Shown: one piece after another, positions 3,875-35,539 of the stretch
Numbering within the stretch: the first letter of the stretch is position 1
Layout of the letters: every line of letters begins with the position of its first letter
Origin: a virus
DNA: 64,000 nucleotides
Direction: 5' to 3' (one strand)
IMG/VR virus record: IMGVR_UViG_3300025469_000003
Coordinates: 27,923-91,922 of that record
The notes under the pieces: generated by a model
The model's database searches: none
What the model was told of the DNA's origin: nothing
Seen by the model: only the letters and a program-made list of their open reading frames with translations
Program-made: the position numbers and the translations under genes

Positions 3875-4020
3875 ATCCTTGTATGCAAACTACGCATTTG
3901 CGTAAAGCACCTTCGTGTTTTTCGCAGTTAGTTTTGAGAGTTGATTTCGGAAGTCTCCCACTCCCGGCTCAAATAAGCGCCGTTTCCTCTTACCCCGGTC
4001 GATGCCATTATACCCCCGTA

Positions 4021-4154
4021 TGGTGGAGGTAGAGAGAATCGAACTCTCGTGTCGTTGTATAGTCATACGGCCTGTTTATGAGCGTACTTTATAATAGCTC
4101 TCGGCGGACCAGAACGCCGGGCTACTGCCAGTACCAAGGGGCCTCACGGCCTCC
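4021..4154 (-). ncRNA. 134-nt RNA with tRNA-like 3' end (T-arm, acceptor strand, CCA)
   Basis: On the minus strand the 3' end is a near-perfect tRNA half: T-stem/loop GAGAG TTCGATT CTCTC, acceptor strand TACCTCC, discriminator A and encoded CCA. The 5' end is GGAGGCC, pairing over 5 bp with CCTCC. Between them there is no normal tRNA body: there is a GGCC-GTGA-GGCC tetraloop hairpin, a CGGCG...CGCCG stem and about 50 extra nt. At 134 nt it is too long for a class I or II tRNA and too short for a normal tmRNA. A strong promoter ends 19 nt upstream, so it should be transcribed on its own. Confidence 0.65.
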
Positions 4155-4201: not shown

Positions 4202-5871
4202 GACTTTCTTAAAACTTTTGAAAGAGCAATTTGAGCCATTCCTTTAGTTATCCCTTGTGGAATAGGTATTCTAAATCTCCGTAAAAGTCTAAGTTGTGCA
4301 AGCGTAGCTTCATCTTTATGCCAACGCGCCTCTCGTCTCACCAGTGTCATTTCTTCGGGGCAAAGCAATCTTACAAATTCTTCAGCGATTCGGAGAGCTT
4401 CTGGCAAATCATTGATGTTATGTTCGTCAACATGATTTATTTTTTCGCCCAATTGCCCACTTACATGCCATTTCTGTACAAGGTCTTCATACACATCTAG
4501 CCTACCGCTTTTCAAATATAGCATGTAATGGCCGTCTGTAGACTTATGCCACTGTAACTTTGATGCTCCAAGAATTTCTTCTGCCCATTTGAAAGAAAAC
4601 AAATCGACGCTTACCGCGTAGCTTCTGAGCTTCAACAGGTCTTGTGCGTCTTTCAGGTTGGCGTTCGGATGCTCTTCTTGAACCTTGTTGAAATAGTCCA
4701 GCGCCGCTGTTACTGTCCGCCCTTGCATGTCCATGCGTTCCGACATACCGAAGAGTTTGGGGACTGTGATGAGCGAGTGCTTCGTAGTGGCGTCCACAAC
4801 GTCCAGTAAGATGCAGTCTTCCTTTTTAATAGGCGTATTGTCGGCTCTGGCTTCAAGCAGATTATTGAGACCGTCCGGGATGCGCGTGCCCCGGCCTGTG
4901 CATTGGACGTAGAGGAGTTGGGACTTGGTTGGCCGGGCCATGACGATGCAGCCGATGTGCCAATCGTCGTATCCTTCGGTGAGGACGGCGCAGTTGCATA
5001 GAACTTTAATGGTTCCATTTCGCAGCGCCATAAGTTTAAAGGCCCGGTTGACATCCTCTCCCCATACGGCAGCCGCCGCGATTCCATGGGCTTGGAAAAC
5101 AGCCGCCATTTGTTGAGAATGGCTAATTCCGACGCAGAAAACCAAGGTAGGTCGTCCTTGCGCTTTTTCGAGCCAGTGCTTGACGACAAGCTCATTCCGC
5201 TGAGAGTTGTTAACAGCATTTTCCAATTCATCTGTAGCAAAGTCGCCAGCGCGGGTATGTACTCCATCCAGCGATTGATCTGTTGTAATCTTGTAGCCTC
5301 GGAGGTTGACGAGCCACCCTTGTTTGATGGCATCGAGAATGCCCATCTGGTAAGTGACCTCTGAAAACACTTCGGCAAGGCCCTTTCCATCCGCACGATT
5401 AGGCGTAGCGGTAACTCCAACATGTAGGATGTGGCTCGTGTCGGCCAGCACTCCGAAGTACTGGTAAATGGTTTGGTAACTGTCTGCGATTGCATGATGA
5501 GCCTCGTCTGTGACTATGATTCCAAAGTCTTCCGGCCTCAGTGCTTGCAAGCGGTTTGAATTCGCCCGGCTGAGTGTGGGCACGCTACCGACTACAATCT
5601 GCGAATTGTTGTCGTCGCGCAGATAACCCATCTCAATTGCCACTGACAATTCAGGATTCCATTTCTTGATCTTGTCTGCGGCCTGCTGCGCAAGCTCCTC
5701 CCTATGCACTAGAACTAACATACGCTTATTTGGTATCAGTCGGGGAAGATTCGCAAAAACTACAGTCTTACCGACGCCGGTAGGCATGGTAACCAATTGA
5801 CGCTTCACGCCTAAATACCATTTGTTAGTGATCGCTTGGAGGGCATCGACTTGGTACGGACGCAGTTTCAT
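4198..5871 (-). CDS. Superfamily 2 DNA helicase (DEAH)
   Basis: 557 residues. RecA-like domain 1 has TMPTGVGKT (about 28-36, Walker A) and TDEAHH (121-126, Walker B/DEAH); motif III-like VTATPNRADG and a second domain with TGRGTRIPDG (motif VI arginines) follow. This is the UvsW/RAD25-like layout of phage helicases that unwind branched DNA or R-loops. The start is the ATG that overlaps the upstream TGA as TGATG; a longer frame to 5922 lacks a ribosome-binding site. The C-terminal 150 residues match nothing I recognise. Confidence 0.9.
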   Translation of the reverse strand: MKLRPYQVDALQAITNKWYLGVKRQLVTMPTGVGKTVVFANLPRLIPNKRMLVLVHREELAQQAADKIKKWNPELSVAIEMGYLRDDNNSQIVVGSVPTLSRANSNRLQALRPEDFGIIVTDEAHHAIADSYQTIYQYFGVLADTSHILHVGVTATPNRADGKGLAEVFSEVTYQMGILDAIKQGWLVNLRGYKITTDQSLDGVHTRAGDFATDELENAVNNSQRNELVVKHWLEKAQGRPTLVFCVGISHSQQMAAVFQAHGIAAAAVWGEDVNRAFKLMALRNGTIKVLCNCAVLTEGYDDWHIGCIVMARPTKSQLLYVQCTGRGTRIPDGLNNLLEARADNTPIKKEDCILLDVVDATTKHSLITVPKLFGMSERMDMQGRTVTAALDYFNKVQEEHPNANLKDAQDLLKLRSYAVSVDLFSFKWAEEILGASKLQWHKSTDGHYMLYLKSGRLDVYEDLVQKWHVSGQLGEKINHVDEHNINDLPEALRIAEEFVRLLCPEEMTLVRREARWHKDEATLAQLRLLRRFRIPIPQGITKGMAQIALSKVLRKS

Positions 5872-9768: not shown

Positions 9769-9964
9769 CCATCCTCTTCAGCTTAGCTTGCAGTTTTTCT
9801 ACACGATGTTCGATACGAGAAACCCATACAGTACCAGAACGTTTCCATCCATGTGTCTCCCAAAAACAGGCCTCGTGTAGCCTAGCTTTCAGGCGCTCAC
9901 GCCTGACGTAGTTTTTGATGATGGCCAACAGCGCATTCTGCGTTAGGGGTTTAGACTTCGTCAT
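9755..9964 (-). CDS. Hypothetical basic protein
   Basis: 69 residues from ATG 9964 (site GGAGTCCA); rich in Lys and Arg with two probable helices (LLAIIKNYVRRERLKARLHEA and IEHRVEKLQAKLKRM), perhaps a short coiled coil. It overlaps the end of the RNA ligase gene by 14 nt and the following amber-interrupted gene. Function unknown. Confidence 0.6.
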   Translation of the reverse strand: MTKSKPLTQNALLAIIKNYVRRERLKARLHEACFWETHGWKRSGTVWVSRIEHRVEKLQAKLKRMDENY

Positions 9965-11183
9965 TGGACTCCTCCGCGTGATAGGTGCCCTGTGAGAAGA
10001 ATTCTGCCCGCGCCGGACGCAGTATCTTCCAAATAACTTTGGCGTAGTCCTTTCCATCGTACATCAAAAACAGTACAGGCGCTAGGAATATCATTTCGGG
10101 GCCTTCCGCCGGATGCTGCATCAACACCTGCTGTTTGAAAAACTCGGCCACGGCCTTGCGATTCCAATCTCCCCGGCTTCCGGCGATGCGAGCTAGCGCG
10201 ATGCTCTCCTGCTCGATGTACTTGAACATCAGCGTGTAATATGCAATCTTGCCGGTCAGCCATTCGGTGAACTCAGGCGGAGTGAACGGAGTCAACGAGG
10301 CAACATCAATAGTCTTGCCTTGGCTCAGCGTCTCCCACACATCACGGTTCGTCATCCCAAACATCGCCCGGTGACTCAGCTTGTAGTTCTCGAACTTGAT
10401 TTTGACGCGCAGAGGAGCCTTGTGAGGAATCGCCAGCGACCAGTTCAAAGGTTCCGACTCCTTCAATCGGATGTAGCCTCCGTGCGAAAGGAATTTAGCT
10501 ACGTATCCTTCGCGGTTTTTGTCGTTCTCTTCCGCACACTGTGCAACAGTCTTGGTAAACAGGGGCACGAGTTCCAGACCGAAGTATCGTCCGTTGTCGA
10601 ACGCCATTTCTTCGTAGGCCAACTCTTCGCCGGTCTCTTTGTAAATCACTGCGAAGAGCACCAGAGACTCGCGTTTGCCGTAGTCTACTACGATCTGGTT
10701 GCCCGGCATGATGATCTCCACCAGCAACGTTTGATGGCGCGGCATCTGGAAGCAGGGCAGAGCTTGCAGGAAGGCAGTAGCCCACTTCGCTTGCTCGCTG
10801 TCGAAGGACCCGCGAGTCGCCACTTCCGGCGGATTGTCCTTGTACTGGAAAATGACGCCCATGCTTCCGTCCATCTTCTCGGTGATCTCGATCTTGTTCT
10901 TGAGAGGATTCAACGGAAGGTTGTCCAGCATCGTCTCCGGGTAGCGCGTGTCATTGATGTTGAAGAAAGCTTCCATTGGCCGGGCCACGATCTCCCCGGT
11001 CTCCCGGTCCACGATCAGACCACGGCAGCGGCGGAGCGTAACATCGTCATGCGTCTTCGTCATCGCTTCGCTCGTATAGTTGTATATGTCTAAAGGCCAT
11101 TTGGGATGAGGGCGTTTAGAAACAAGCCCGTTAGAAACTCCTCCTTCTAGCTCATTTGCATCGACATATTGATTAAGTAGCAT
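9951..11183 (-). CDS. RNA ligase, T4 Rnl1-like
   Basis: 410 residues. The nucleotidyltransferase motif TEKMDGSMG places the AMP-accepting Lys at about 103, close to Lys99 of T4 Rnl1; upstream RGLIVDRETGEIVARPMEAFF is the typical strand before it, and downstream LVEIIMP and EGYVAKF fit motifs III-IV. T4 Rnl1 repairs tRNA cut by host anticodon nuclease. The start is ATG 11183 after GGAGGTTAC; the frame continues to 11339 but that part is the antisense-free shadow of the adjacent HNH gene. The gene follows an HNH gene with an 11-nt overlap. Confidence 0.88.
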   Translation of the reverse strand: MLLNQYVDANELEGGVSNGLVSKRPHPKWPLDIYNYTSEAMTKTHDDVTLRRCRGLIVDRETGEIVARPMEAFFNINDTRYPETMLDNLPLNPLKNKIEITEKMDGSMGVIFQYKDNPPEVATRGSFDSEQAKWATAFLQALPCFQMPRHQTLLVEIIMPGNQIVVDYGKRESLVLFAVIYKETGEELAYEEMAFDNGRYFGLELVPLFTKTVAQCAEENDKNREGYVAKFLSHGGYIRLKESEPLNWSLAIPHKAPLRVKIKFENYKLSHRAMFGMTNRDVWETLSQGKTIDVASLTPFTPPEFTEWLTGKIAYYTLMFKYIEQESIALARIAGSRGDWNRKAVAEFFKQQVLMQHPAEGPEMIFLAPVLFLMYDGKDYAKVIWKILRPARAEFFSQGTYHAEESNDEV

Positions 11184-11568
11184 GTAACCTCCGAAGATGC
11201 AATGCACGTTTCTTCCATTGATGATTCCAACATAGAGTTTGAAGCCCTTTTTGACGCTCTCTATGGAAGAGCCAAGAATACAACTTCGAGCCATGCATTT
11301 GGCCTTTGCGTCGTTGGTATGCGCCATCGTTGTTGACATGATCTAATGTCAACATATCTAAATCGATTTGGCTACATCCACGCCAACAACATTTTGCTTC
11401 TCCGTCCTTTCCGTAACGAGCTAGAACAATGTTCTTTGTTTGTCGCTGGTGTCTGAAGTTTATTCGGCAGCGAGAGGCTTTTCCTTTAGATGTTCGGAGA
11501 TATTTTTTCTGTGCGGCTTTTCCTTTAATGCCACCATTGTATTTTCTAACTGTTTCTTTTCTGTTCAT
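11173..11568 (-). CDS. HNH homing-type endonuclease, six-copy family, copy 1
   Basis: 131 residues. Signature: CCWRGC, then IDLDMLTLDHVNNDGA (the HNH His is in LDHV) and LQTLCWNHQWKKR near the end. This family occurs six times in the window. The N-terminus is basic (KYNGGIKGKAAQKKYL). It is inserted immediately before the RNA ligase and its 3' end overlaps the ligase start by 11 nt without disrupting it, as expected of a free-standing homing gene. Start ATG 11568. Confidence 0.85.
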   Translation of the reverse strand: MNRKETVRKYNGGIKGKAAQKKYLRTSKGKASRCRINFRHQRQTKNIVLARYGKDGEAKCCWRGCSQIDLDMLTLDHVNNDGAYQRRKGQMHGSKLYSWLFHRERQKGLQTLCWNHQWKKRALHLRRLHAT

Positions 11569-15673: not shown

Positions 15674-15747
15674 TGGTTTCCGGGGCTGGACTCGAACCAA
15701 CGTTCTCAGGTTCAAAGCCTGATGTCCTACCATTGGACGACCCGGAA
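15674..15747 (-). tRNA. tRNA-Gln (TTG)
   Basis: Complete cloverleaf on the minus strand: acceptor TTCCGGG/CCCGGAA (7 bp), D-arm GTCC AATGGTA GGAC, anticodon arm TCAGG CTTTGAA CCTGA with anticodon TTG, T-arm GTTGG TTCGAGT CCAGC, discriminator A and encoded CCA. Decodes CAA. Confidence 0.92.
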
Positions 15748-15752
15748 AAAAT

Positions 15753-15839
15753 TGGTGGGGTGTAGTGGAGTCGAACCACCTGCCCACAAGTGAGCACGGG
15801 TTTACAGCCCGCCCTAGTCGCCAGTGCCAGTCACACCCC
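15753..15839 (-). tRNA. tRNA-Tyr (GTA)
   Basis: Acceptor GGGGTGT/ACACCCC, anticodon loop CTGTAAA (GTA), the long variable arm normal for bacterial tRNA-Tyr, T-loop TTCGACT, encoded CCA. It is 5 nt from tRNA-Gln, so the two are probably processed from one transcript. Confidence 0.9.
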
Positions 15840-15850
15840 GAAAAAGAAAG

Positions 15851-16157
15851 TGCTGAGGGTAGATGGAGTCGAACCACCACAGAGGCTAGGCGCTGTACAC
15901 ACGGAGCTAGCCTCCATCCGCTTTTATTGCTACTGGATTTCACAAGGTTCCTGCCTCGCCTCAGCGCATAACTGGCGGCTTCGAGGAATGGGATTCGAGA
16001 CCCACTATACGAAACAATTACCGGGCTTAATCCGGCACGTAACCGCATACCGAACGCAACTGCGTTGTGCCTATCCACAAGGCGCTCCAAGGATTTGAGG
16101 TCTTACGTCTATCAGTAGCCTATTTAGCGTTGCATCTGCCGATTCTGCCATACCCCC
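15851..16157 (-). ncRNA. tRNA-Leu-like gene with about 200-nt insertion in the anticodon arm
   Basis: Minus strand: a 5' half (GGGGGTA acceptor, TG, D-arm GCA GAATCGGCAGA TGC, class II Leu style) begins at 16157. A 3' half (AGCG, a long variable hairpin GAGGCTAG...CTAGCCTC, T-arm GGTGG TTCGACT CCATC, acceptor TACCCTC, A) ends at 15854. The two acceptor strands pair 7/7 with one G-T. CGCT (5') and AGCG (3') can close the anticodon stem, then GCTACTG/CAGTAGC continue the helix around a structured domain. No U33 is obvious, so the splice point and anticodon are unknown. Confidence 0.6.
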
Positions 16158-16301
16158 GAAAAGGTTTTGGGGAAAGATGAGTGGTGAGGATTTCGCTTTC
16201 GGTTTCGTCCCGGCCTATCCTCTAGGGCTAGGGCGAAGCTGCGCCGTTGATTCGAGCCTAAGCGATGTCTTGCCCGTACGGGCCTCACCTTCCCCCAAAC
16301 T

Positions 16302-16386
16302 TGGTGGCGATAGAGGGAGTCGAACCCACACGGTTTTACCCACTGGTTTTTGAAACCAGCGCGTCTGCCAGTTCCACCATATCGCC
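16302..16386 (-). tRNA. tRNA-Leu (CAA)
   Basis: Acceptor GGCGATA/TATCGCC, D-arm with GG, anticodon arm CTGGT TTCAAAA ACCAG (CAA, reads UUG), class II variable arm, T-loop TTCGACT, discriminator A, encoded CCA. Confidence 0.92.
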
Positions 16387-16395
16387 TGAAAGATT

Positions 16396-16478
16396 TGGTA
16401 CGGGGAGAGGGCATCGAACCCCCATGGTTGCCCACTGGTTTCTAAGACCAGCGCGTCTGCCAATTCCGCCATCCCCGC
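16396..16478 (-). tRNA. tRNA-Leu (TAG)
   Basis: Acceptor GCGGGGA/TCCCCGT (first pair G-T), anticodon arm CTGGT CTTAGAA ACCAG (TAG, reads CUA), class II variable arm, T-loop TTCGATG, encoded CCA. Its body is a close relative of the neighbouring tRNA-Leu (CAA), suggesting duplication. One arm of a 23-bp inverted repeat ends 4 nt before its 5' end. Confidence 0.9.
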
Positions 16479-16481
16479 ACA

Positions 16482-16738
16482 CGAGAACATTCGGCAGAGT
16501 ATCGTTACTCTTTTCTCGCAGTTCCTACCGGATTTGAAAAAAGAGAGTATGGATTTCACTTTGTTCCTGCCTACGCCTAGCCCGCATGGGGTTCGGACCC
16601 ATGTTCCTGCGGTATATTCTGCCCGCAGTGTGCTTCCTGCATCGCCGGTTTGCCCCGGCTAGCCTATGTCTACACTAGCGGTAAGGTTTCGGTCTTACGT
16701 CTCTCACACTTTTTGATACTCTGCCGAATGCTCTCGTT
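16482..16738. repeat. 257-bp unit closed by a 23-bp inverted repeat
   Basis: ACGAGAACATTCGGCAGAGT at 16482-16501 (arm continues ATC to 16504) is matched by its inverse at 16716-16738 with one mismatch. The right arm lies inside the 49-residue gene; the left arm abuts tRNA-Leu (TAG). Between them is a tRNA-like fold and edge motifs shared with the domain inserted in the interrupted tRNA-Leu: AGACGTAAGACC, and GGCAGGAAC plus GTGAAATCC. Confidence 0.7.
16578..16661 (-). ncRNA. Degenerate tRNA-like RNA inside the inverted-repeat unit
   Basis: Minus strand: TAGCCGG and CGGGCTA can form an acceptor stem (6 of 7 pairs); D-arm GCA AACCGGCGA TGC; T-arm ATGGG TCCGAAC CCCAT with C instead of the invariant T55. 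The middle is too long for an anticodon arm: CTGCGG, 10-nt loop, CCGCAG, with no usable U33. No CCA. Likely not an aminoacyl acceptor as it stands. Confidence 0.5.
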
Positions 16739-16819
16739 CTGTGGCAGCCAGGCGGCCGCCTGAGAGGCAAGCTCAAAACAGAGCTGACGGAAGCTCTCGA
16801 TAGTAAGCCAATTGATCAT
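16670..16819 (-). CDS. Hypothetical small protein
   Basis: 49 residues (MINWLTIESFRQLCFELASQ ... TLPLV) from ATG 16819, overlapping the upstream stop as ATGA. Amphipathic helix at the start, basic near the end (SIKKCERRKTE). Its 3' third contains one arm of the 23-bp inverted repeat and the AGACGTAAGACC edge motif, so coding and structured-RNA signals overlap here. No family recognised. Confidence 0.55.
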   Translation of the reverse strand: MINWLTIESFRQLCFELASQAAAWLPQNESIRQSIKKCERRKTETLPLV

Positions 16820-17022
16820 TGACCAGAAAGCTTGCGTATGGTCTCGCCGTAGTCCCTGACGGCACGGCTGACTGCCTCTGCGACAACTGGATTCCGACGC
16901 TCTGGAATGCCCGGGATGGTCAGGGTGGCGATTATTGGATCTGCGTAGAATTGATACTTCAAGGCCACCTCACCGCCCACAGTGATTTCGAATCGCTCAA
17001 TCTTTCTTATTCTTATTTCCAT
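16816..17022 (-). CDS. Hypothetical small protein
   Basis: 68 residues from ATG 17022 with a strong site (GGAGAGGGCG). Beta-rich first half (IRIRKIERFEITVGGEVALK), helical end (VVAEAVSRAVRDYGETIRKL). ATGA overlap with the next gene. Function unknown. Confidence 0.65.
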   Translation of the reverse strand: MEIRIRKIERFEITVGGEVALKYQFYADPIIATLTIPGIPERRNPVVAEAVSRAVRDYGETIRKLSGQ

Positions 17023-17050
17023 CGCCCTCTCCTTCGTTGGCTTGGTTATC

Positions 17051-17167
17051 CTACTCCTCCAGCAACTCGGAAATCCTCTTTCTCTCAATCCACTTAAACC
17101 CAGCATAGCTCGTCACTAAAGCGATGTCCACGTCTCCGCCCGCGGTTTTTGAAGTTGCGACGATCAT
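17051..17167 (-). CDS. Hypothetical small protein, possibly leaderless
   Basis: Reading MIVATSKTAGGDVDIALVTS ... RISELLEE, 38 residues from ATG 17167; an in-frame ATG at 17185 would add six. The upstream ATG lies inside the promoter spacer, so the 17167 start, 8 nt after the -10 box, is preferred and implies a leaderless or nearly leaderless message. No family recognised. Confidence 0.5.
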   Translation of the reverse strand: MIVATSKTAGGDVDIALVTSYAGFKWIERKRISELLEE

Positions 17168-17175
17168 AACTTCCC

Positions 17176-17204
17176 ATGTTACCATACCTCCAATCCCTTG
17201 TCAA
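17176..17204 (-). promoter_or_regulatory. Sigma70-type promoter
   Basis: Minus strand: -35 TTGACA (17199-17204), 17-nt spacer containing GGAGG, -10 TAACAT (17176-17181). It faces the small genes 17167 to 16670 and the tRNAs beyond. Confidence 0.7.
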
Positions 17205-17335
17205 CTGGTTTTTTTTGGGCGGTCGGAGTCGGATACTCCGAAACAGCAGCCTCGCATCGGCCAACGCTTTACGTGGCCTTCGCCTGCAAGTCCATCGCAT
17301 CTGCTGTCAGCTTGCAGCCTCCGCCCAAATCTATT

Positions 17336-17410
17336 TGGTGCGCCCGGATGGATTTGAACCACCGGCTTCCTGCTTGTAGGGCAGGCACTCTTCCGCTGAG
17401 TTACGAGCGC
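17336..17410 (-). tRNA. tRNA-Val (TAC) with C33
   Basis: Acceptor GCGCTCG/CGGGCGC, T8-A9, D-arm ACTC AGCGGAA GAGT, anticodon arm CCTGC CCTACAA GCAGG (TAC), T-arm GGTGG TTCAAAT CCATC, encoded CCA. The base before the anticodon is C instead of the nearly universal U33. Confidence 0.87.
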
Positions 17411-17411
17411 A

Positions 17412-17505
17412 TGGCGGAAGGTGCTGGATTTGAACCAGCGGGTCCCTTTGAGGGGGACCAACGGTTTAGCAAACCGCCGCATTCGACCATCTCTGCCAAC
17501 CTTCC
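17412..17505 (-). tRNA. tRNA-Ser (GCT)
   Basis: Acceptor GGAAGGT/ACCTTCC, anticodon loop TTGCTAA (GCT, reads AGC/AGU), long class II variable arm GGTCCC...GGGACC, T-loop TTCAAAT, discriminator G as expected for Ser, encoded CCA. Two nt from tRNA-Val. Confidence 0.92.
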
Positions 17506-17511
17506 GTAAAC

Positions 17512-17583
17512 CGCGCAGTGCGGGAGTCGAACCCGCCAGTAACGGCTTTGCAGGCCGTTGCCTAGCCGATTGGCTTCCTGCGC
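17512..17583 (-). tRNA. tRNA-Cys (GCA), overlapping the DNA ligase gene
   Basis: Anticodon arm ACGGC CTGCAAA GCCGT (GCA), T-arm GCGGG TTCGACT CCCGC, acceptor GCGCAG/CTGCGC. Position 8 is not T and no CCA follows, so host CCA addition is needed. The first 22 nt are also the last codons of the upstream ligase gene (stop TAG at 17562-17564). Confidence 0.82.
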
Positions 17584-18623
17584 GTAGTGAACGCCACATT
17601 TCGTTTCGGACGCTCGGGAGCGTGAGCCAAATTTTCAAGCGGCACTCGCTCGATAGGAATGTTCTGAATAGCCGGACCGGGCACGTTCAAACGTCCGGTA
17701 GGGCTAGGAGCGTCCATGTCCAACTTGCTACGCCAGCCAAGGAAGATTGCATGACGTGGTTTAACCTTGGCACCATGTGGAAAGTGTTTGTACTTCATGA
17801 TGCGACCGTTGTAGGCCAGTGGGTTCGCTTGCAGTTCTTTCCACATCTTGCGTCGCTGGCGCATCGTGAATCCGACGCCGACCTCGAACTCGACTTTGCT
17901 CTTGCAATCACGTACTAGAAACCGGCCAAGCAAAGGCAGAGGCACCTTACCAGCTTTGGACAGGGACCTCTTCGTATGGCCGAGGGCGTTCTTGAACGCA
18001 GCATTGGCGTTGTGATAGAGGGGTAGAAAATCATAGACCTCGGCGTCTGCGTCAACAAACCTCTTCACCTTTAGCAGCCAGCCTTCCCGCTCTGTTGACC
18101 GGCCATGCTTGTACGGACCTTGCGGGTCCCGGACCATCACGCCCTCGCCGCCATGGGCTAGAACGTCTTTCTCGAAGGCCCGCAACTCAGCCACACAGAA
18201 TACGAGGGTCTGGCGGACAGCTTTAACACTGAAAGACAACGGACCCATAGCAGTAACAGCATAGCAATAATCTTCGTACCGTTGCTCGAAAGGCTTGTCC
18301 TCTACCTTGTCGAATACGTAAAAGTCAACGTCTGCGCCACGGGAATCATGTTCACTCATGACGATGGAAAGCGTGAGGCAGTAGCAATCCTTTGCATTCG
18401 GGTCGCCGTAAATAAGCTCTCCGTCCAGACCCGGCTCTGCCCTGCGAAGTTTTTCCTGCACAAATTCGTTCGGAATCAGATTCATACTGCGACTCATAAC
18501 AACCGAGGCAGTATTATCTTCCTTGTGAATAAACGCACGAATCCCGTCCAGCTTCACAGAGGCATAGACCGGGTAGCGTAACTTTTTCACATTGCTTGTC
18601 TGTGTTGCCAACATCACCTGCAT
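17562..18623 (-). CDS. ATP-dependent DNA ligase
   Basis: 353 residues. Motif I SVKLDGIRA puts the adenylated Lys at 24; GLDGELIYGD (motif III-like), GEGVMVRDP (motif IV) and WLLKVKRF (motif V) follow in order, then an OB-fold tail with FEVGVGFTMRQR. It seals nicks in replicating phage DNA using ATP. The last seven residues are encoded inside tRNA-Cys. Start ATG 18623. Confidence 0.9.
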   Translation of the reverse strand: MQVMLATQTSNVKKLRYPVYASVKLDGIRAFIHKEDNTASVVMSRSMNLIPNEFVQEKLRRAEPGLDGELIYGDPNAKDCYCLTLSIVMSEHDSRGADVDFYVFDKVEDKPFEQRYEDYCYAVTAMGPLSFSVKAVRQTLVFCVAELRAFEKDVLAHGGEGVMVRDPQGPYKHGRSTEREGWLLKVKRFVDADAEVYDFLPLYHNANAAFKNALGHTKRSLSKAGKVPLPLLGRFLVRDCKSKVEFEVGVGFTMRQRRKMWKELQANPLAYNGRIMKYKHFPHGAKVKPRHAIFLGWRSKLDMDAPSPTGRLNVPGPAIQNIPIERVPLENLAHAPERPKRNVAFTTRRKPIG

Positions 18624-20476: not shown

Positions 20477-20980
20477 TTACTCGTTCAACATGCAATCATG
20501 CAAATCGTAGTAATGCTCTTCAGCGCGAGCCATCACACGTTCTGCGCACGGATTGCAGTATGCGTCATCTTCCGACGTGTTGAAATCCTCGTACCACAGG
20601 CCGTCATAGAAATAACCAGCCACGATGCGGGTGTAGCAGTGCTGGCAGATGCGAGGCTCCTGAATCAGGATGCTGCAATAATCGCAATAGTCGCCGTTGT
20701 TCTGGCAGGTGCATCCATTCGGAAACATCTCGGCGGCCATGCTGGAGTTGTCCCACAGGGCCATTTCATCGCTGCCACAGTACGGGCAAACGAAGTACCA
20801 CGCATCATCAAAGTCCTGAGTCTCAACGACGCCATGCAGCAACACATGCTTGGCATCGCGGTAAAAGAAAACGGTGTTGCACACTTTGCAGCGTGCGCTG
20901 CATTTGCACTCATTGTGATCGTGCAGGCCATGCTTGCAATTGCATTCAAGTTTACAAGGAACTGCATATAAATTTCTCAT
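20477..20980 (-). CDS. Cysteine-rich multi-zinc-finger protein
   Basis: 167 residues with about 22 Cys: CKLECNCKHG, CKCSARCKVC, CPYCGSDEM, CTCQNNGDYCDYC, CQHCYTR and CNPCAER. Three or four zinc ribbons in series are likely. No catalytic motif seen. Start ATG 20980 overlaps the upstream stop as TAATG. Possibly a nucleic-acid or RNA-polymerase binding factor; not identified. Confidence 0.65.
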   Translation of the reverse strand: MRNLYAVPCKLECNCKHGLHDHNECKCSARCKVCNTVFFYRDAKHVLLHGVVETQDFDDAWYFVCPYCGSDEMALWDNSSMAAEMFPNGCTCQNNGDYCDYCSILIQEPRICQHCYTRIVAGYFYDGLWYEDFNTSEDDAYCNPCAERVMARAEEHYYDLHDCMLNE

Positions 20981-21198
20981 TAAGCTCTCCCGGCGCTAGC
21001 CGCCAATTGTTTGAATTGAAACGCACGTCCCTCTTGAACAGTGCGGGGCATATAGAATGCCTTGTTTTTCTGCGCTATTTCGTAGGAAGGAAACAACACC
21101 GTTCGATCTTGACCGGCTGGAATCCTTTCAACGAAAGGCTCCACATCGCTCAAGCTCACGTTCCGAAAATCCTTTGCAGTCAGATTAGGTTTCAACAT
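20980..21198 (-). CDS. Hypothetical protein
   Basis: 72 residues from ATG 21198 (site GCGAGGAGGCATC). Sequence MLKPNLTAKDFRNVSLSDVE ... ASAGRA; no motif recognised. First cassette of the element-separated array: the structured element A fills the space between it and the previous gene. Confidence 0.6.
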   Translation of the reverse strand: MLKPNLTAKDFRNVSLSDVEPFVERIPAGQDRTVLFPSYEIAQKNKAFYMPRTVQEGRAFQFKQLAASAGRA

Positions 21199-21296
21199 GA
21201 TGCCTCCTCGCGGGACCGGGCTTACAACCGGCCTGCCGCATTACAACACTCATAGACTAGGACACGCTAGCCGGTGTATGAATGCTGTGTTCTGCG
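21199..21296 (-). promoter_or_regulatory. Intercistronic structured element, copy A
   Basis: Minus strand: CGCAGA starts directly after the previous stop codon; a variable hairpin (ACAC/GTGT with GCTAGC in the loop); TAATGCGGCAG; then the hairpin GCCGG TTGTAAGC CCGG just before the ribosome-binding site. CGCA and TGCG can pair as an outer stem. Confidence 0.75.
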
Positions 21297-21530
21297 TTAC
21301 TTGCGAGGTTTTAAAAAGACGATGTACAATTCATAGAATGATAAACCTACAACTAATACTGTTAGCCATCCTTGAACTGTAATACAGTCATTAAAAAAAT
21401 CATTGGTTGTAAACAAATGATGATGATAGCGCCACAACCATGTTTGTACCCAGTCTAAGAATGTTATGATTGTATTCTCGATTGGGAAAGTCTCGTGAAG
21501 CCAGTCCAAAAAGTTTATGATATAATTCAT
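21297..21530 (-). CDS. Membrane protein
   Basis: 77 residues, Trp/Phe-rich N-terminus (INFLDWLHETFPIENTIITF) and a clear transmembrane helix near the C-terminus (WLTVLVVGLSFYELYIVFL). The segment FLDW is repeated 20 residues later. ATG 21530, site AGAGGGTACA. Its TAA touches element A. Confidence 0.65.
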   Translation of the reverse strand: MNYIINFLDWLHETFPIENTIITFLDWVQTWLWRYHHHLFTTNDFFNDCITVQGWLTVLVVGLSFYELYIVFLKPRK

Positions 21531-21612
21531 TGTACCCTCTCATGAAGAGCGTGGCCGGGCTTACAACCGGCCTGCCGCATTAAACCCGCACAGTATGCGG
21601 GTTCCGTCTGCG
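21531..21612 (-). promoter_or_regulatory. Intercistronic structured element, copy B
   Basis: CGCAGA after the stop codon; variable hairpin ACCCGCA TACTG TGCGGGT; TAATGCGGCAG; terminal hairpin GGCCGG TTGTAAGC CCGGCC; then AGAGGG and ATG. Confidence 0.78.
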
Positions 21613-22245
21613 TTAATGGATATAATATGATACATTCTTAACTGTGTTTGACCAGCAAGCACGGCATGTATCACAACGTCCACCTTGATTGGGAGCCGGA
21701 CATGCAAAGCCGATAGGAGCGGAATAACGCTGTACAGTAGAGGTTGTTAATTGAGTAAGGCCCTTTGGCTTGCAACCATGATCTATGATATAAGCTGACA
21801 ACCGGATTGTCAGGTTAGTAGGGATTGTTCCACCCTCAGCAAGAAATTTTCTCACTACATTAAACTCCTTGGTGGGCATCCAATGCTGGCACCAAGGGGT
21901 TGCATTAACAAGAGAAATTATCTGCCGTAGATGTGCTACGCTCTGAAGATCGCCTGCATCATGCCATCTAAAGTACGACTTGCCTTTTAACATTGTAACC
22001 ATAGCCTCTTGCCATTGTGGATGCTGAAGTGCTTTCAATTTGAAAGCACGAAAAGGATCAACATTTTTTGCAAAAGCTTTTGCATAGCCCTTCCTTGCAT
22101 AGCAATGAGCGCAAGGCGAGTTAGGATTACTGCGGAGAGTTTTTCCCACATGGCAGGAATCACAGGGCAGTGTGTATGACCCGCACGGCAACTTATTGTT
22201 AACGTAAATCTTTCCTACAATCTTTTCAGCTTGTTTCTTAGTCAT
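21613..22245 (-). CDS. GP88-like phage protein
   Basis: 210 residues resembling the Gene product 88 family of mycobacteriophages: CDSCHVGKT and CAHCYARKGYA near the N-terminus, SYFRWHDAGDLQ, WCQHWMPTKEFN, LTIRLSAYIID, and FACPAPNQGGRCDTCRACW at the end. The Cys pattern suggests a metal or Fe-S cofactor. The biochemical role of GP88 is not established. ATG 22245 after AGGAGGAAC. Element B follows its stop. Confidence 0.75.
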   Translation of the reverse strand: MTKKQAEKIVGKIYVNNKLPCGSYTLPCDSCHVGKTLRSNPNSPCAHCYARKGYAKAFAKNVDPFRAFKLKALQHPQWQEAMVTMLKGKSYFRWHDAGDLQSVAHLRQIISLVNATPWCQHWMPTKEFNVVRKFLAEGGTIPTNLTIRLSAYIIDHGCKPKGLTQLTTSTVQRYSAPIGFACPAPNQGGRCDTCRACWSNTVKNVSYYIH

Positions 22246-22340
22246 GTTCCTCCTAATTGCCGGGCTTACAACCGGCCTGCCGCATTACAACACTCATAGA
22301 CTAGGACACGCTAGCCAGTGTATAGATACTGTGTTCTGCG
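22246..22340 (-). promoter_or_regulatory. Intercistronic structured element, copy C
   Basis: Nearly identical to copy A: CGCAGA, hairpin with ACAC/GTGT around TGGCTAGC, TAATGCGGCAG, hairpin GCCGG TTGTAAGC CCGGC, then AGGAGGAAC and ATG. Confidence 0.78.
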
Positions 22341-22344
22341 AATG

Positions 22345-22665
22345 CTAATCCCACCAAAGACGAAGTTTTCCACCAATTATGTTGTATTCATCTTCCCCAA
22401 GCTCGTGTTCTTCAATAGAGTTTGGTTCGACATAAACACACACACTGTATTCGCGGGCAAGCAAAACGTCGCCTTTGATGCGTCCTAACAAGTCCGCTGT
22501 AAAGTTGTTATAGCCATCCGGGACAGCCTTTGCCATGATCTTAACTGCCACGTCGGACGGCACACTTTGAAATGCACGAAAATGAAGATTACGTGTTTCT
22601 TCAGTATATGCAGCAATTACTTCATCTGCCACAGTTTTGTACTTATTTGGTATCCTTGTAACCAT
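22345..22665 (-). CDS. Hypothetical protein
   Basis: 106 residues from ATG 22665 (site GCGGAGGTGATAC). Helical N-terminus (YKTVADEVIAAYTEETRNLH), beta-rich end with acidic patch (EEHELGEDEYNIIGGKLRLW). No family recognised. TAG is followed after 4 nt by element C. Confidence 0.6.
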   Translation of the reverse strand: MVTRIPNKYKTVADEVIAAYTEETRNLHFRAFQSVPSDVAVKIMAKAVPDGYNNFTADLLGRIKGDVLLAREYSVCVYVEPNSIEEHELGEDEYNIIGGKLRLWWD

Positions 22666-22767
22666 GTATCACCTCCGCGTAGCCGGGCTTGTAACCGGCT
22701 TGCCGCATTATCGCACCCGCCATGAATTATACGCCTAGTAGTAGAGGCTAAGGTGCGTCACTCTGCG
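22666..22767 (-). promoter_or_regulatory. Intercistronic structured element, copy D
   Basis: CGCAGA; variable hairpin with different stem CGCACC/GGGTGCG and a long arm; TAATGCGGCAA; hairpin GCCGG TTACAAGC CCGGC; then GGAGGTGATAC and ATG. Confidence 0.72.
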
Positions 22768-22778
22768 AACTCTATGAC

Positions 22779-22904
22779 TTACTTAGTATATTTCTTCCCT
22801 GTCTCTGCAAATATTTCGCCTCTCAGGGTTGCTTCATCGAAACGTGGATACTGGCAGGGAAATGCTTTCGTTCTCCATGTATCCTTTGTTGTATCTGTTT
22901 TCAT
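22779..22904 (-). CDS. Small hypothetical protein
   Basis: 41 residues (MKTDTTKDTWRTKAFPCQYP ... GKKYTK) from ATG 22904, site AGGGTGATTT. Charged and probably soluble. Lies between elements D and E and so forms its own cassette. Confidence 0.55.
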   Translation of the reverse strand: MKTDTTKDTWRTKAFPCQYPRFDEATLRGEIFAETGKKYTK

Positions 22905-23005
22905 AAATCACCCTATGATACGTGGCCGGGCTTGTCACCGGCCTGCCGCATTAAGGCGGGGCATACCGCAACATCTTGTATGCCGGACTCCGCCTTGACT
23001 CTGCG
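22905..23005 (-). promoter_or_regulatory. Intercistronic structured element, copy E
   Basis: CGCAGA directly after a TAG; variable hairpin AAGGCGG/CCGCCTT with inner GGCATAC/GTATGCC; TAATGCGGCAG; hairpin GGCCGG TGACAAGC CCGGCC; then AGGGTGAT and ATG. Confidence 0.75.
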
Positions 23006-23076
23006 CTATTTCCGAATCTCCAACAGCGTGCCATCGGGTCCAAATCGACCGCGATACAATCGTGGCCGGGCATAGG

Positions 23077-23400
23077 CTACCTCACTTTCACCACGATGCC
23101 GTTCTTCAATTCGGCCTGCGCATACCACGTATGCGCCGCAGGAGGATACGTTCCGCTATACGTTGGTGGTTGCGGCCGGGCTGCCCAATAGTGTGGACCT
23201 TCCAAGCAAGTCGTGCCTTCAGTTGGTTCGTTGCCACCAAATGGTCCGGGCTGATAGATGCGCACAGGACGCGCCAGTGCAGCTTCGGGGCCAACAGTAA
23301 GAGCAAACACCGGATCGGCGATTGCTTTCAAATGATCGTTCCAGTTTTTCACGGCTTCCTTGAGTTGCTTTTTCGTTTTGAAATTGATTGTAGTATACAC
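23077..23400 (-). CDS. Hypothetical protein, GTG start
   Basis: 107 residues. The frame is open to 23451 but those codons are element F; GTG 23400 follows GAGGTGG at the normal place after the element, so I start there (VYTTINFKTKKQLKEAVKNW...). Helical N-terminal third, Pro/Tyr-rich end. The 71 bases between its stop and element E (23006-23076) hold no clear gene, though a short frame (TLLEIRK) ends exactly at the element. Confidence 0.55.
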   Translation of the reverse strand: MYTTINFKTKKQLKEAVKNWNDHLKAIADPVFALTVGPEAALARPVRIYQPGPFGGNEPTEGTTCLEGPHYWAARPQPPTYSGTYPPAAHTWYAQAELKNGIVVKVR

Positions 23401-23483
23401 GGGCCACCTCAGCGGTTTTAAATTGCCGGGCTTCGGACCGGCTAGCCGCATTAGACCCGCACAGTATGCGGGTGCCGTCTGCG
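23401..23483 (-). promoter_or_regulatory. Intercistronic structured element, copy F
   Basis: CGCAGA; hairpin ACCCGCA TACTG TGCGGGT as in copy B; TAATGCGGCTA; hairpin GCCGG TCCGAAGC CCGGC (loop differs); then GAGGTGG and GTG. Confidence 0.75.
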
Positions 23484-27593: not shown

Positions 27594-28287
27594 TGGAGGG
27601 AAGGACAGCACAGCAATGGCCCTGCTTTTGGCCGAAGTTGAGCCGAGAGATTACACATACGTCTGCACTCCTACAGGCAACGAGCCTCCTGAAATGTTTG
27701 AGCACTGGCTTAACCTTGGTCGCATCCTCGGAAAGCCGCTCCTTCCCATAATTGGGGGAACGCTTGTTGGACTCATTGAAAAACAGATGGCTCTCCCGAA
27801 CTGGTGGCAAAGGTGGTGTACTCGACTTCTCAAGATCGAACCTTACGCAGCTTGGCTCTCCAAACAAGGCGAATGTACATCTTACGTCGGGATTCGCGCC
27901 GACGAGCCTGACAGGGAAGGCGGGGATTACCTTGACATTCCTGGCGTGATTATGGACTTCCCTTTGAAGCGTTTGGGTTGTGGATTGAGGGAAGTCTTGG
28001 CTATCAATCAACGCCACGGAGTGACTATCCCCAAGAGAACGGATTGCGACCTCTGCTTCTTCCAAAGGCTTATCGAGTGGTGGGAATTTTGGAAGCGCAA
28101 TCCGCTTGGATGGGCTGAAGGTGAGCGGCTCGAAAAGCTCACTGGTCACAGCTTCCGCTCGCCAGGAAGAGATACCTGGCCCGCTTCTGTGGAGGGACTG
28201 AGGCTGAGATTTGAGGCAGGCGACATTCCAAAGGACACAAGGCGCGACCCGCTCAATGAAATGAAGTGTCGCGTGTGTCGGTTGTAA
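27571..28287 (+). CDS. PP-loop ATPase (PAPS-reductase/adenine nucleotide alpha-hydrolase superfamily)
   Basis: 238 residues. SGGKDS at 8-13 is the ATP pyrophosphatase loop; later CTRLLKIEPYAAWL, GIRADEP, and a Cys group CDLCFF and CRVC near the C-terminus. Members make an adenylated intermediate: sulfate reduction, tRNA thiolation, queuosine synthesis, or phosphorothioate DNA modification (DndC). Phage members are usually of unknown substrate; no other modification gene is adjacent. Start ATG 27571 after AAGAGGAAAA. Confidence 0.82.
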   Translation: MRHVVALSGGKDSTAMALLLAEVEPRDYTYVCTPTGNEPPEMFEHWLNLGRILGKPLLPIIGGTLVGLIEKQMALPNWWQRWCTRLLKIEPYAAWLSKQGECTSYVGIRADEPDREGGDYLDIPGVIMDFPLKRLGCGLREVLAINQRHGVTIPKRTDCDLCFFQRLIEWWEFWKRNPLGWAEGERLEKLTGHSFRSPGRDTWPASVEGLRLRFEAGDIPKDTRRDPLNEMKCRVCRL

Positions 28288-30721: not shown

Positions 30722-30792
30722 TGGAGCGTGTGGCGGGACTCGAACCCGGCCTCTTCAGTTTGGAAGACTGAGGCACAACCTCTATACCACGC
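30722..30792 (-). tRNA. tRNA-Gly (TCC), atypical D-arm
   Basis: Anticodon arm TCAGT CTTCCAA ACTGA (TCC, reads GGA), T-loop TTCGAGT, encoded CCA. The acceptor pairs at five positions only and the D-arm is short (GAGG TTGTG CCTC, no GG in loop). Five nt after the stop of the 40-residue gene. Confidence 0.78.
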
Positions 30793-30796
30793 CCAC

Positions 30797-30919
30797 TTAC
30801 TTGTGGAGTTGCCAGCGAAGATACTTCAACTTGAGCATGACGAGGATCACACGCAAGTCGGTGAAGTCGATGCACACTTTTAGCCAGATCAAGCGGAGAT
30901 AAAGACGAATACTTTCCAT
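30797..30919 (-). CDS. Small membrane-associated peptide
   Basis: 40 residues (MESIRLYLRLIWLKVCIDFT ... RWQLHK): alternating hydrophobic and basic residues, likely an amphipathic or membrane helix. ATG 30919 follows AGGTGACTG. Between the 49-residue gene and tRNA-Gly in one minus-strand operon. Confidence 0.55.
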   Translation of the reverse strand: MESIRLYLRLIWLKVCIDFTDLRVILVMLKLKYLRWQLHK

Positions 30920-30974
30920 CAGTCACCTAGTCTTCCGGCGTCATCGTGATCGTTGCAACAAGTTATGGTCGGCT

Positions 30975-31124
30975 TCAGCGGCAAGGGCTGGCCTGTGCTG
31001 CCGGACGCTCGCGGTCGGGGCATACTATGGTGAGGAAACGTTCGAGGTTTTCAAAGCGTTCTCTGAGAGCTTCGAGAACCTGTGTCTGCTCTTTCGTTAC
31101 TTCCGTGAATCCGAAATCTGACAT
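30975..31124 (-). CDS. Hypothetical small protein
   Basis: 49 residues from ATG 31124 with a strong site (GGAGGATCGT): MSDFGFTEVTKEQTQVLEAL ... SPCR. Helical. Located between tRNA-Pro and the 40-residue gene. Confidence 0.6.
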   Translation of the reverse strand: MSDFGFTEVTKEQTQVLEALRERFENLERFLTIVCPDRERPAAQASPCR

Positions 31125-31140
31125 ACGATCCTCCGAAAAT

Positions 31141-31215
31141 TGGTCAGGGCTGAGGGAGTCGAACCCCCGACCTCGTGGTCCCAAGCCACGCGCCATACCG
31201 CTTGGCTAAGCCCTG
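31141..31215 (-). tRNA. tRNA-Pro (TGG)
   Basis: Acceptor CAGGGCT/AGCCCTG, anticodon arm CGTGG CTTGGGA CCACG (TGG), T-loop TTCGACT, discriminator A, encoded CCA. Confidence 0.92.
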
Positions 31216-31218
31216 TTA

Positions 31219-31317
31219 TTATACTGGATGAGAGCGCATCCTAAAGTACACAATTCCTACGACTGCACATGCACAGAAGAATGCTCCCAAACTTGCTCCT
31301 GCTAAAGCAATTACCAC
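31219..31317 (-). CDS. Very small membrane peptide, GTG start
   Basis: 32 residues (VVIALAGASLGAFFCACAVV then GIVYFRMRSHPV): one transmembrane helix. GTG 31317 follows AGGAGAACCC; stop is 3 nt before tRNA-Pro. Confidence 0.55.
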   Translation of the reverse strand: MVIALAGASLGAFFCACAVVGIVYFRMRSHPV

Positions 31318-31444
31318 GGGTTCTCCTATCGCAGTAGTCTATCTAACTCTGCCAAGGTCAGCTTTTCAAGCGGCGACCCGGCGACCCGGCGCTGAGGTCA
31401 AGCCCGCGTCTGTCGGCCTCCCGCCTCTCTTTCCATCAACCTAC

Positions 31445-31473
31445 AGATTACCATACCCTTCGGCGTATGTCAA
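31445..31473 (-). promoter_or_regulatory. Sigma70-type promoter for the tRNA-Pro/tRNA-Gly operon
   Basis: Minus strand: -35 TTGACA (31468-31473), 17-nt spacer, -10 TAATCT (31445-31450). The 31318-31444 leader contains a tandem GGCGACCC pair but no gene. Confidence 0.75.
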
Positions 31474-31537
31474 GCCTTTTCTGTGGTGTGACTGCAAGCC
31501 TTTTGTGCTGTGCGGATGCAAGTCTTTCCTGTTCATT
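31470..31537. repeat. Imperfect tandem repeats of about 24 nt
   Basis: GTCAAGCCTTTTCTGTGGTG, GCAAGCCTTTTGTGCTGTGC and a partial GCAAGTCTTTCCTG follow one another just upstream of the leftward promoter, so they could be regulator sites. Confidence 0.6.
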
Positions 31538-31559
31538 TTTCTCGGATGTTCACACATAA

Positions 31560-31569
31560 TGAACGTTCA
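31560..31569. promoter_or_regulatory. Palindrome with flanking half-sites
   Basis: TGAACGTTCA is a perfect 10-nt palindrome; GTTCA or TGAAC half-sites recur at about 31549, 31578 and 31595. It lies between two leftward promoters, as expected of an operator. The rest of 31570-31865 holds no gene. Confidence 0.45.
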
Positions 31570-31738
31570 TGGGTGCGTGAACGCCGGACGATGCATGAAC
31601 ACGCAAGAGCTTTGCAAGTCAGGTTTTGACGAAGTTAGCGTTGTCTGGCTTCGTAAGACTAAGTAAAGACAGTATGTTAGCTACCTACTGACTCATATAT
31701 TACCTAGTCTGGTATTTCGCTTTGCGTCGTTAAAGGCC

Positions 31739-31767
31739 AGTTTACTCCTTTTTTAGCCCGTTGTCAA
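31739..31767 (-). promoter_or_regulatory. Sigma70-type promoter, leftward
   Basis: Minus strand: -35 TTGACA (31762-31767), 17-nt spacer, -10 TAAACT (31739-31744). Second leftward promoter of the intergenic region. Confidence 0.7.
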
Positions 31768-31865
31768 GCAAAAAGTGAAGGTGTGCCAAAGAAAAACTAT
31801 ATTTGCTTTAGATTCATGGGTATGCCCGGAAAACAGTAGGATAGGAACCCCGATTTATGGAATAA

Positions 31866-31982
31866 TACATAGAGAGAAGAAACGAAAGTGGTTGTACACA
31901 AGGGAAGCAAGAGAATCAGGGAAACCAAGGTAATCAATTTCAGTTGCAGTTGAACGATCCCCAGCCTACTGTGCCGGGATGA
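31866..31982 (+). pseudogene. C-terminal fragment of a collagen-like protein
   Basis: A frame with no usable start reads TQGKQENQGNQGNQFQ then ends in PTVPG and TGA. The GNQ repeats match those of the tail protein at 62027-63193 and the partial gene at the right edge, so this looks like the stranded 3' end of such a gene, followed by a terminator. Confidence 0.5.
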
Positions 31983-31988
31983 GCAAGG

Positions 31989-32028
31989 GAGCCGCAGGCA
32001 GTGATGCTTTGCGGCTCTTTCGGTTTTT
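31989..32028 (+). terminator. Rho-independent terminator
   Basis: GAGCCGCA (31989-31996) pairs with TGCGGCTC (32010-32017), followed by TTTCGGTTTTT. Ends rightward transcription from the collagen-like fragment, just before tRNA-Ala. Confidence 0.75.
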
Positions 32029-32031
32029 CAT

Positions 32032-32107
32032 GGGCTTGTAGCTTAATCGGGAGAGCACCTGCCTTGCACGCAGGGGGTTGCAGGTTCGATGCCTGTCGGG
32101 TCCACCA
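32032..32107 (+). tRNA. tRNA-Ala (TGC)
   Basis: Only plus-strand tRNA. Acceptor GGGCTTG/CGGGTCC (with G-T pairs), D-arm GCTT AATCGGGA GAGC, anticodon arm CCTGC CTTGCAC GCAGG (TGC), T-loop TTCGATG, encoded CCA. Confidence 0.9.
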
Positions 32108-33905: not shown

Positions 33906-33931
33906 CCCAACTTTCCTTGGAGTGTGCGTTC

Positions 33932-35539
33932 GTGGCGAAGGAATTGACGTTTGGAAAAGATGCACGTAATAGGATGCTCATTGGCATCAATGCAGTAGCT
34001 AGGCTAGTCTCGGCTACTATTGGTCCTAAAGGTAGATGCATTGTAGTTGAGCGGGTTGTGACTAATCCTGCTACGAAAGAAGTTGTAAAGCTGTCACCAG
34101 TGACTACAAAAGATGGGGTGTCTGTTGCGAGAGCCATTTCACTTCCAAATGCTACAGAAAATTTAGGCTGTGATCTTATTCGAGAAGCAGCCCTTCGTAC
34201 AGTGCAAGAGGCGGGTGATGGCACCACTGCCAGCGTCATACTTTCTCAGGCAATTATTTCTGAGGGGATGAAGGCGCTGGAAAAAGGAGCCAGTCCGGTT
34301 TTCCTACGGTCAGGGATTGACAAGGCTACTGCGAAGATAGTTCAACAACTCGCGCAGATGTCAACGCGCTATGACGGCATGGGTCTGGATGTAGCCCGCA
34401 TCGCGGCGAATGGCGATGAAGAAGTTGCTAAGATTGTAACTGAAGCCTTACAAATGGCTGGTAAGAACGGCATCGTTAGCGTCGATAGTTCGCGCACAGA
34501 CAAGACGCACATCGAGTTTTCTGCCGGGATGAGATTTGATTCCGGGTTTCGGCATCCTGATTTCATTACGGATTTTTCACGAAATGAGTGCGTTCTTGAA
34601 AATCCGTTTATACTCTTGCACGAGCGCCGCATTCAGAGCATTGGAAAGATAGAGCCTTTGCTCGCCGCAGTAGCTCAGGCAGGCCGTTCGATCCTCATTC
34701 TATCAGAGGAATTTGAATTGCCGGTAATGGCGCTGTTATTACAGAATCGCGCTGTGCTGCGCTCGTGCGTCGTAACAGCACCTTGGTATGGTGAGCGCCG
34801 GAGAGATTTTCTTTCTGACTTAGCAGCCTTTACAGGTGGCATTAGTATTGTAGAAGAACTTGGTCTTGATCTGTCTAAATGCGACTTGAGTGTCCTTGGA
34901 CAGGCCGAGCGCGTCGTGGTGACGCGAACTAATACCACGATCATCAAGGGTAAGAGCAAGGGCAATGAGTTGGCGCAGCGAATCGAATCGCTTTCCAGCG
35001 CCATTGCTTCGACGGAGAATCCTTACGACAAGGAAATTCTGGCTGAGAGGTTAGCGAAGTTGGATGGAGGTGTGGCCGTTATTAAAATAGGCGCTCCAAC
35101 GGAATCTGAGGCTAAGGAAAAAAGAGATAGAACGGAAGACGCCGTGTTGAGTGTGAAATGTGCTCAGGAAGACGGCACAGTTCCGGGAGGAGGAATTGCT
35201 CTTTTACGTTGTCAAGAGAGTGTAAATTTCTCGGGTGAAAAACTACACAATGAAGAGCTTGTTGGAATAGGCATTGTTTTTCATGCTCTTGAGGCTCCAT
35301 TAAAGCAGATTTTGGAAAACGGCGGTTACAATGTCAAGGATACGATGAAGTGCCTTAAAGGGCGGGCAGATTCAATTGGCTTTGATGCTTTGTCTGGCGA
35401 AGTTGTTGACATGCGGGACAAAGGCATAATGGATGCTTCAAAGGTTGTCAAACAAGCACTTATCAATGCAGCTAGCCTTGCTGGCACATTTTTGACTGTG
35501 GCAGGAAGCATCGTTAATTTGGAGGCAAAGGGTGCGTAA
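33932..35539 (+). CDS. groEL: GroEL-type chaperonin
   Basis: 535 residues from GTG 33932 (VAKELTFGKDARNRMLIGIN), aligned with the normal GroEL N-terminus; GGAG lies 10 nt upstream. Group I signatures: TIGPKGR, TKDGVSVA, AGDGTTAS (ATP site), and TVPGGGIALLR in the second equatorial half. The C-terminal Gly-Gly-Met tail of cellular GroEL is absent (ends NLEAKGA). It is quite divergent. Phage chaperonins fold capsid or other virion proteins; a groES lies 384 nt downstream, separated by a broken HNH gene. Confidence 0.93.
   Translation: MAKELTFGKDARNRMLIGINAVARLVSATIGPKGRCIVVERVVTNPATKEVVKLSPVTTKDGVSVARAISLPNATENLGCDLIREAALRTVQEAGDGTTASVILSQAIISEGMKALEKGASPVFLRSGIDKATAKIVQQLAQMSTRYDGMGLDVARIAANGDEEVAKIVTEALQMAGKNGIVSVDSSRTDKTHIEFSAGMRFDSGFRHPDFITDFSRNECVLENPFILLHERRIQSIGKIEPLLAAVAQAGRSILILSEEFELPVMALLLQNRAVLRSCVVTAPWYGERRRDFLSDLAAFTGGISIVEELGLDLSKCDLSVLGQAERVVVTRTNTTIIKGKSKGNELAQRIESLSSAIASTENPYDKEILAERLAKLDGGVAVIKIGAPTESEAKEKRDRTEDAVLSVKCAQEDGTVPGGGIALLRCQESVNFSGEKLHNEELVGIGIVFHALEAPLKQILENGGYNVKDTMKCLKGRADSIGFDALSGEVVDMRDKGIMDASKVVKQALINAASLAGTFLTVAGSIVNLEAKGA

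Follow-up and report, generated by a model that had tools for sequence, protein, structure and literature searches.

Genes and gaps of a minus-strand phage array

The window, as the whole 64,000-nucleotide stretch analysed here is called (positions 27,923 to 91,922 of IMG/VR virus record IMGVR_UViG_3300025469_000003), is from a tailed phage with terminase, portal-like and primase/helicase genes, a T4-type RNA ligase and a GroEL chaperonin, the gene for the latter being at 33917-35539 on the plus strand (phrog_5725, E 8e-123). It also has ten phage tRNA genes, at 15674-17584 (minus strand) and 30722-32107, for Gln, Tyr, two Leu, Val, Ser, Cys, Gly, Pro and Ala, and, at 3890-4083 on the minus strand, a permuted tmRNA that scores 64.8 bits with RF04321 (cut-off 47) and is not called by ARAGORN. 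Phage examples of permuted tmRNA may already be known; the term 'permuted tmRNA', at least, is contained in a paper on a marine methylophage (PMC9004378).

The feature under study is a structured element present six times in a run of minus-strand genes. Read in the direction of the genes, copy F (23426..23483) is followed by a small gene with a GTG start (23077..23400), copy E (22926..23005) by a 41-aa ORF (22779..22904), copy C (22683..22767) by a 106-aa gene (22345..22665), copy D (22260..22340) by a 210-aa gene (21613..22245), copy B (21555..21612) by a 77-aa gene (21297..21530), and the last, copy A (21216..21296), by a tight group of at least two genes, of 72 aa (20980..21198) and 167 aa (20477-20980), with no ribozyme between them. 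The only array gene to match a described family is the 210-aa one, of the GP88 family (PF17338, 83.5 bits, E 2.7e-23); the gene after copy F and the 106-aa and 77-aa genes have no family match. Does the element travel with GP88? That association was considered and rejected, since none of 29 searched contigs with GP88 relatives (29-43% identity) has a match to the element; such contigs total 31, and the remaining two, which have it, are near-identical to the window.

The first-pass annotation described the six minus-strand gaps as having one architecture, and the order CGCAGA, hairpin, TAATGCGGC, GCCGG-8nt-CCGGC, Shine-Dalgarno and start was found again. Its placement of CGCAGA within about 12 nt of the preceding stop codon holds for five copies (0-11 nt) and fails for copy F (30 nt). 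Of the five gaps that separate the copies, four agree with its one small gene per unit; the exception, 23006-23425, contains the gene at 23077-23400 plus a possible 40-codon ORF.

A known ribozyme and its covarying contacts

In an Rfam scan at a permissive threshold, all six copies match RF02684, the type-P5 twister, with E-values from 9e-10 to 7.5e-4 for the 6 kb region, well outside what chance would give. Against the curated cut-off of 37.6 bits, five are above, at 55.2 (B), 52.3 (C), 52.2 (F), 43.0 (E) and 38.5 bits (A), and copy D, at 32.1 bits (E 7.5e-4), is below. The same search revealed no seventh copy in the rest of the 91,922-base virus record, and no match in any of 14 control genomes. 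Judged by sequence and alignment, the six copies are thus members of a known self-cleaving ribozyme class. The earlier opinion that there was 'no described element with this layout' has to be given up; a match to a known Rfam family had itself been named as what would count against the proposal, and RF02684 is such a match.

Mapped onto the twister fold, CGCAGA corresponds to loop L1 together with the 5′ strand of P2, the hairpin of variable sequence to P1, and GCCGG-8nt-CCGGC to P4 and its loop L4. The predicted U|A cleavage site is contained in TAATGCGGC; UAAUGC provides both that site and the second P2 strand, UAA being present in all six copies. In the Rfam alignments the P1, P2 and P4 stems are in type-P5 order in every copy. 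The stems, the core UAAUGC/GCAGA/AAGCCC, the tertiary contact T1 and the open end at the P5 side are shared with RF02684, and there is no difference in fold; what differs here is the tandem array of about one element per gene, with one chimeric copy whose T1 is broken. A likeness to integron attC sites, hairpin elements between small gene cassettes, goes no further than that, as neither RYYYAAC nor GTTRRRY cores are present in any of the six copies or their 10 nt flanks, and attC, already dismissed in the first-pass annotation, is rejected.

The Rfam model is without pseudoknots, and as T1 is absent from it, a test of T1 is independent of the RF02684 identification. In twisters T1 consists of three Watson-Crick pairs between L1 and L4 (PMC5408937). 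Here the triplet that follows GCAGA was compared with the one just ahead of AAGCCC in 76 distinct elements, taken from bacterial contigs and other viral contigs as well as from the window. T1 is fully paired in 74 of the 76, with a mean of 36 and a maximum of 46 in 10,000 shuffling trials. With each triplet combination counted once, 13 of 15 pair, and shuffling gives 2.7 on average and never more than 8. Five of the six window copies have it, as CGG:CCG in F, GUC:GAC in E, GUG:UAC in C and ACA:UGU in both D and A; the exception is copy B. The exception in another contig, L020, is apparently a mis-parse by the search expression, a nearer CGCAAA-GTG being able to pair with CAC, and unlike it the one in copy B is real. 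P1 is paired in 72 of the 76 elements, the mean being 11 with strands shuffled, so the compensatory hairpin changes and the RNA structure reported from the six copies were correctly perceived, apart from the 'ACAC/GTGT' stem of two copies, where ACA-UGU is T1 with L4 and P1 starts at the next bases. Pairing of T1 and P1 so far above shuffled levels is strong evidence for selection on the RNA fold. For T2, between L2 and L4, the GGC and GCC that could form it are present in all six copies and are invariant, hence without a covariation signal.

The copies are not equal. P1 is long in four of the six, and in copy D it is both long and imperfect. The 5′ part of copy B has 93% identity to copy F and 25% to copy A, while its 3′ part has an identity of 1.00 to copies A and D and 82% to copy F, which points to an origin by recombination between members of the array. 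Its T1 bases, CGG and UGU, do not pair, and weak cleavage is predicted for it in consequence; that it nevertheless has the top Rfam score of the six is due to T1 not being scored by the model.

Placement and spread

How general is the position between stop and start? Flanking sequence was sufficient for 73 elements, and random positions from their loci served as control. A same-strand ORF stops within 20 nt of 77% of the elements (control 19%), and for 95% a start codon with a Shine-Dalgarno match lies no more than 90 nt downstream (control 35%). Where an upstream ORF exists (66 elements), the stop-to-element distance has a median of 1 nt, and some of the stop codons are inside the element (CGCAGAGTGA). 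From predicted cut to start codon the median is 56.5 nt in this sample and the range 41-54 nt in the window, where GTG at 23400 is taken as the start after copy F. A promoter-like scan of the array region gave 9 sites with 5.1 expected (sd 2.3), which makes no clear case for one promoter per gene. Leaderless translation from the AUG of UAAUG, at the AAUG 5′ end that a cut would create, was also considered, and rejected as only one of the six copies has that AUG in the reading frame of the gene.

The stop-twister-start layout recurs across 49 other viral contigs. These were picked by a pattern resembling the window's own copies, which biases the sample; all 49 match RF02684, with 111 matches in total and 47 records having one above the cut-off. 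At least two copies are present in 22 of them and a single copy in 27, the records for which are possibly fragments. Arrays of four to nine copies, the elements within one phage being related to each other, are found in G003, G008, G024, G031, G032 and G036, besides G043 and G044, whose array is 99.9% identical to that of the window; these two are the same virus and provide no independent support. The median spacing in arrays is 576 nt, and some slots have two or more genes with no ribozyme between them. Bacterial contigs with pattern matches include those of Desulfosporosinus, Caproicibacter, Acidobacteria and others. No DNA relatives of the array were found among named phages, and a short query made of the P4-side core yielded only 17-nt matches. 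A distant homologue of the gene after copy F (35% over 107 aa) is at 5006-5218, minus strand, in a further contig, L023, which also has type-P5 twisters.

Proposed cutting of the message and its alternatives

What might a phage gain from a ribozyme at almost every gene of an operon? Twisters are widely distributed, and in 2016 their biological functions were reviewed as largely speculative (PMC5408937). Enrichment of hammerheads and twisters close to genes of Mu-like phages has been published (PMC10085705). A precedent is known from prophages, where hammerheads are described in clusters around single genes or blocks of genes; these ribozymes cut in vitro and, in the case of an A. tumefaciens array, also after cloning in E. 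coli (PMC3088659). Shared with the present case, as far as that account goes, are self-cleaving ribozymes flanking phage genes or blocks and the proposal that they cut long transcripts; the differences are that they are of another class and in small clusters, with one triple array tested in cells, whereas here there are six twisters (four to nine in other phages) in a fixed stop-to-start geometry. The synthetic insulator RiboJ, in which the cleaved ribozyme leaves a 5′ hairpin and mRNA is up about twofold (PMC6206723), likewise has a ribozyme upstream of the ribosome-binding site whose cut leaves that hairpin and a standard leader, though it is hammerhead-built and placed after a promoter, and the present elements are natural twisters between genes.

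The reading we favour, and consider probable, is that the six type-P5 twisters between genes of this one minus-strand phage operon divide its polycistronic message into pieces that are short or carry a single gene, the processing of each mRNA that the first-pass annotation had put forward also being, on the sequences, likely. Each ribozyme would cut its own RNA during transcription, right after the initial U of UAAUGC, with the cut predicted at 23453 (U)/23452 (A) for copy F, 22953/22952 for E, 22710/22709 for C, 22287/22286 for D, 21582/21581 for B, where the cut would be weak, and 21243/21242 for A. The upstream piece would then have a 3′ end consisting of the P1 hairpin with a 2′,3′-cyclic phosphate, and the downstream piece would start with 5′-OH-AA and the P4 hairpin, the P5 permutation being what places a hairpin at both new ends. 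In minimum-energy folds the predicted upstream products have the P1 hairpin at or near their end for five copies, and the imperfect P1 of copy D is unformed in its fragment; the predicted downstream products begin AAUGCGGC, with the P4 hairpin adjoining. 5′-OH ends resist 5′-end-dependent RNases. With these new ends each gene should become independent of the genes beside it, the pieces should be degraded more slowly and the ribosome-binding site should be exposed, much as RiboJ is designed to do. Copy B without T1, copy D below the Rfam cut-off and the array slots with several genes and no ribozyme between them count against cutting throughout the array, and the single copy in 27 of the 49 contigs implies that arrays are not needed for whatever one copy does. 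The T4-type RNA ligase of this phage (PF09511; window 9951-11339, minus strand) could in principle act on ribozyme-made RNA ends, if these are first healed.

A rival reading, which we judge unlikely, is that the elements serve mainly as stretches of common sequence at which homologous recombination can take place, permitting gain, loss and reordering of cassettes, with ribozyme activity secondary or making cassettes independent of context. Recombination there has probably been: copy B joins an F-type half to an A/D-type half, and in the related phages L086, L088 and L091 homologous cassette genes (68-88% identity) are in different slots, which lends some support to the first-pass suggestion that cassettes recombine. 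Of 13 ends of in-array homology blocks, five have an element no more than 11 nt away in each of the two phages. This is suggestive only; it is just modestly above a rough expectation of 17%, and the conserved ribozyme itself lengthens alignments. Phage mosaicism arises without ribozymes too, and variation of P1 and T1 with pairing kept is a mark of selection on structure rather than on an identical sequence. The same compensatory changes, across dozens of contigs, together with the strict placement between stop and start, make it highly improbable that the copies are selfish repeats or repeats in decay, without a function today, even with T1 broken in copy B and copy D below the cut-off. Alternatively, a ribosome ending the upstream gene could cover CGCAGA and block folding, with cutting occurring only when upstream translation is low or paused. 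The median stop-to-element distance, CGCAGA at 0-11 nt from the stop in most copies and the stops inside the element are what such a switch would call for; however, the compactness of phage genomes accounts for the distance equally well, copy F is 30 nt from its stop, and we regard gating by translation as improbable.

Returning to the cutting of the message, a wider version of it is that these phages use type-P5 twisters as standard natural insulators, each gene having its own cut site and 5′ and 3′ hairpins, such that cassettes could be swapped between slots and phages without upset to expression, the swapping being driven by recombination inside the ribozymes. This we hold tentatively, and rather doubt. 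The ribozyme is a known one, and the interest is in the arrangement: about one per gene, a fixed geometry, shuffling of cassettes and a natural broken copy. The pairing of the T1 triplets and the geometry from stop to start offer an easy way to look for further arrays, and a phage operon with a ribozyme at almost every gene, together with a T1-broken copy as a natural control, makes twister function directly testable.
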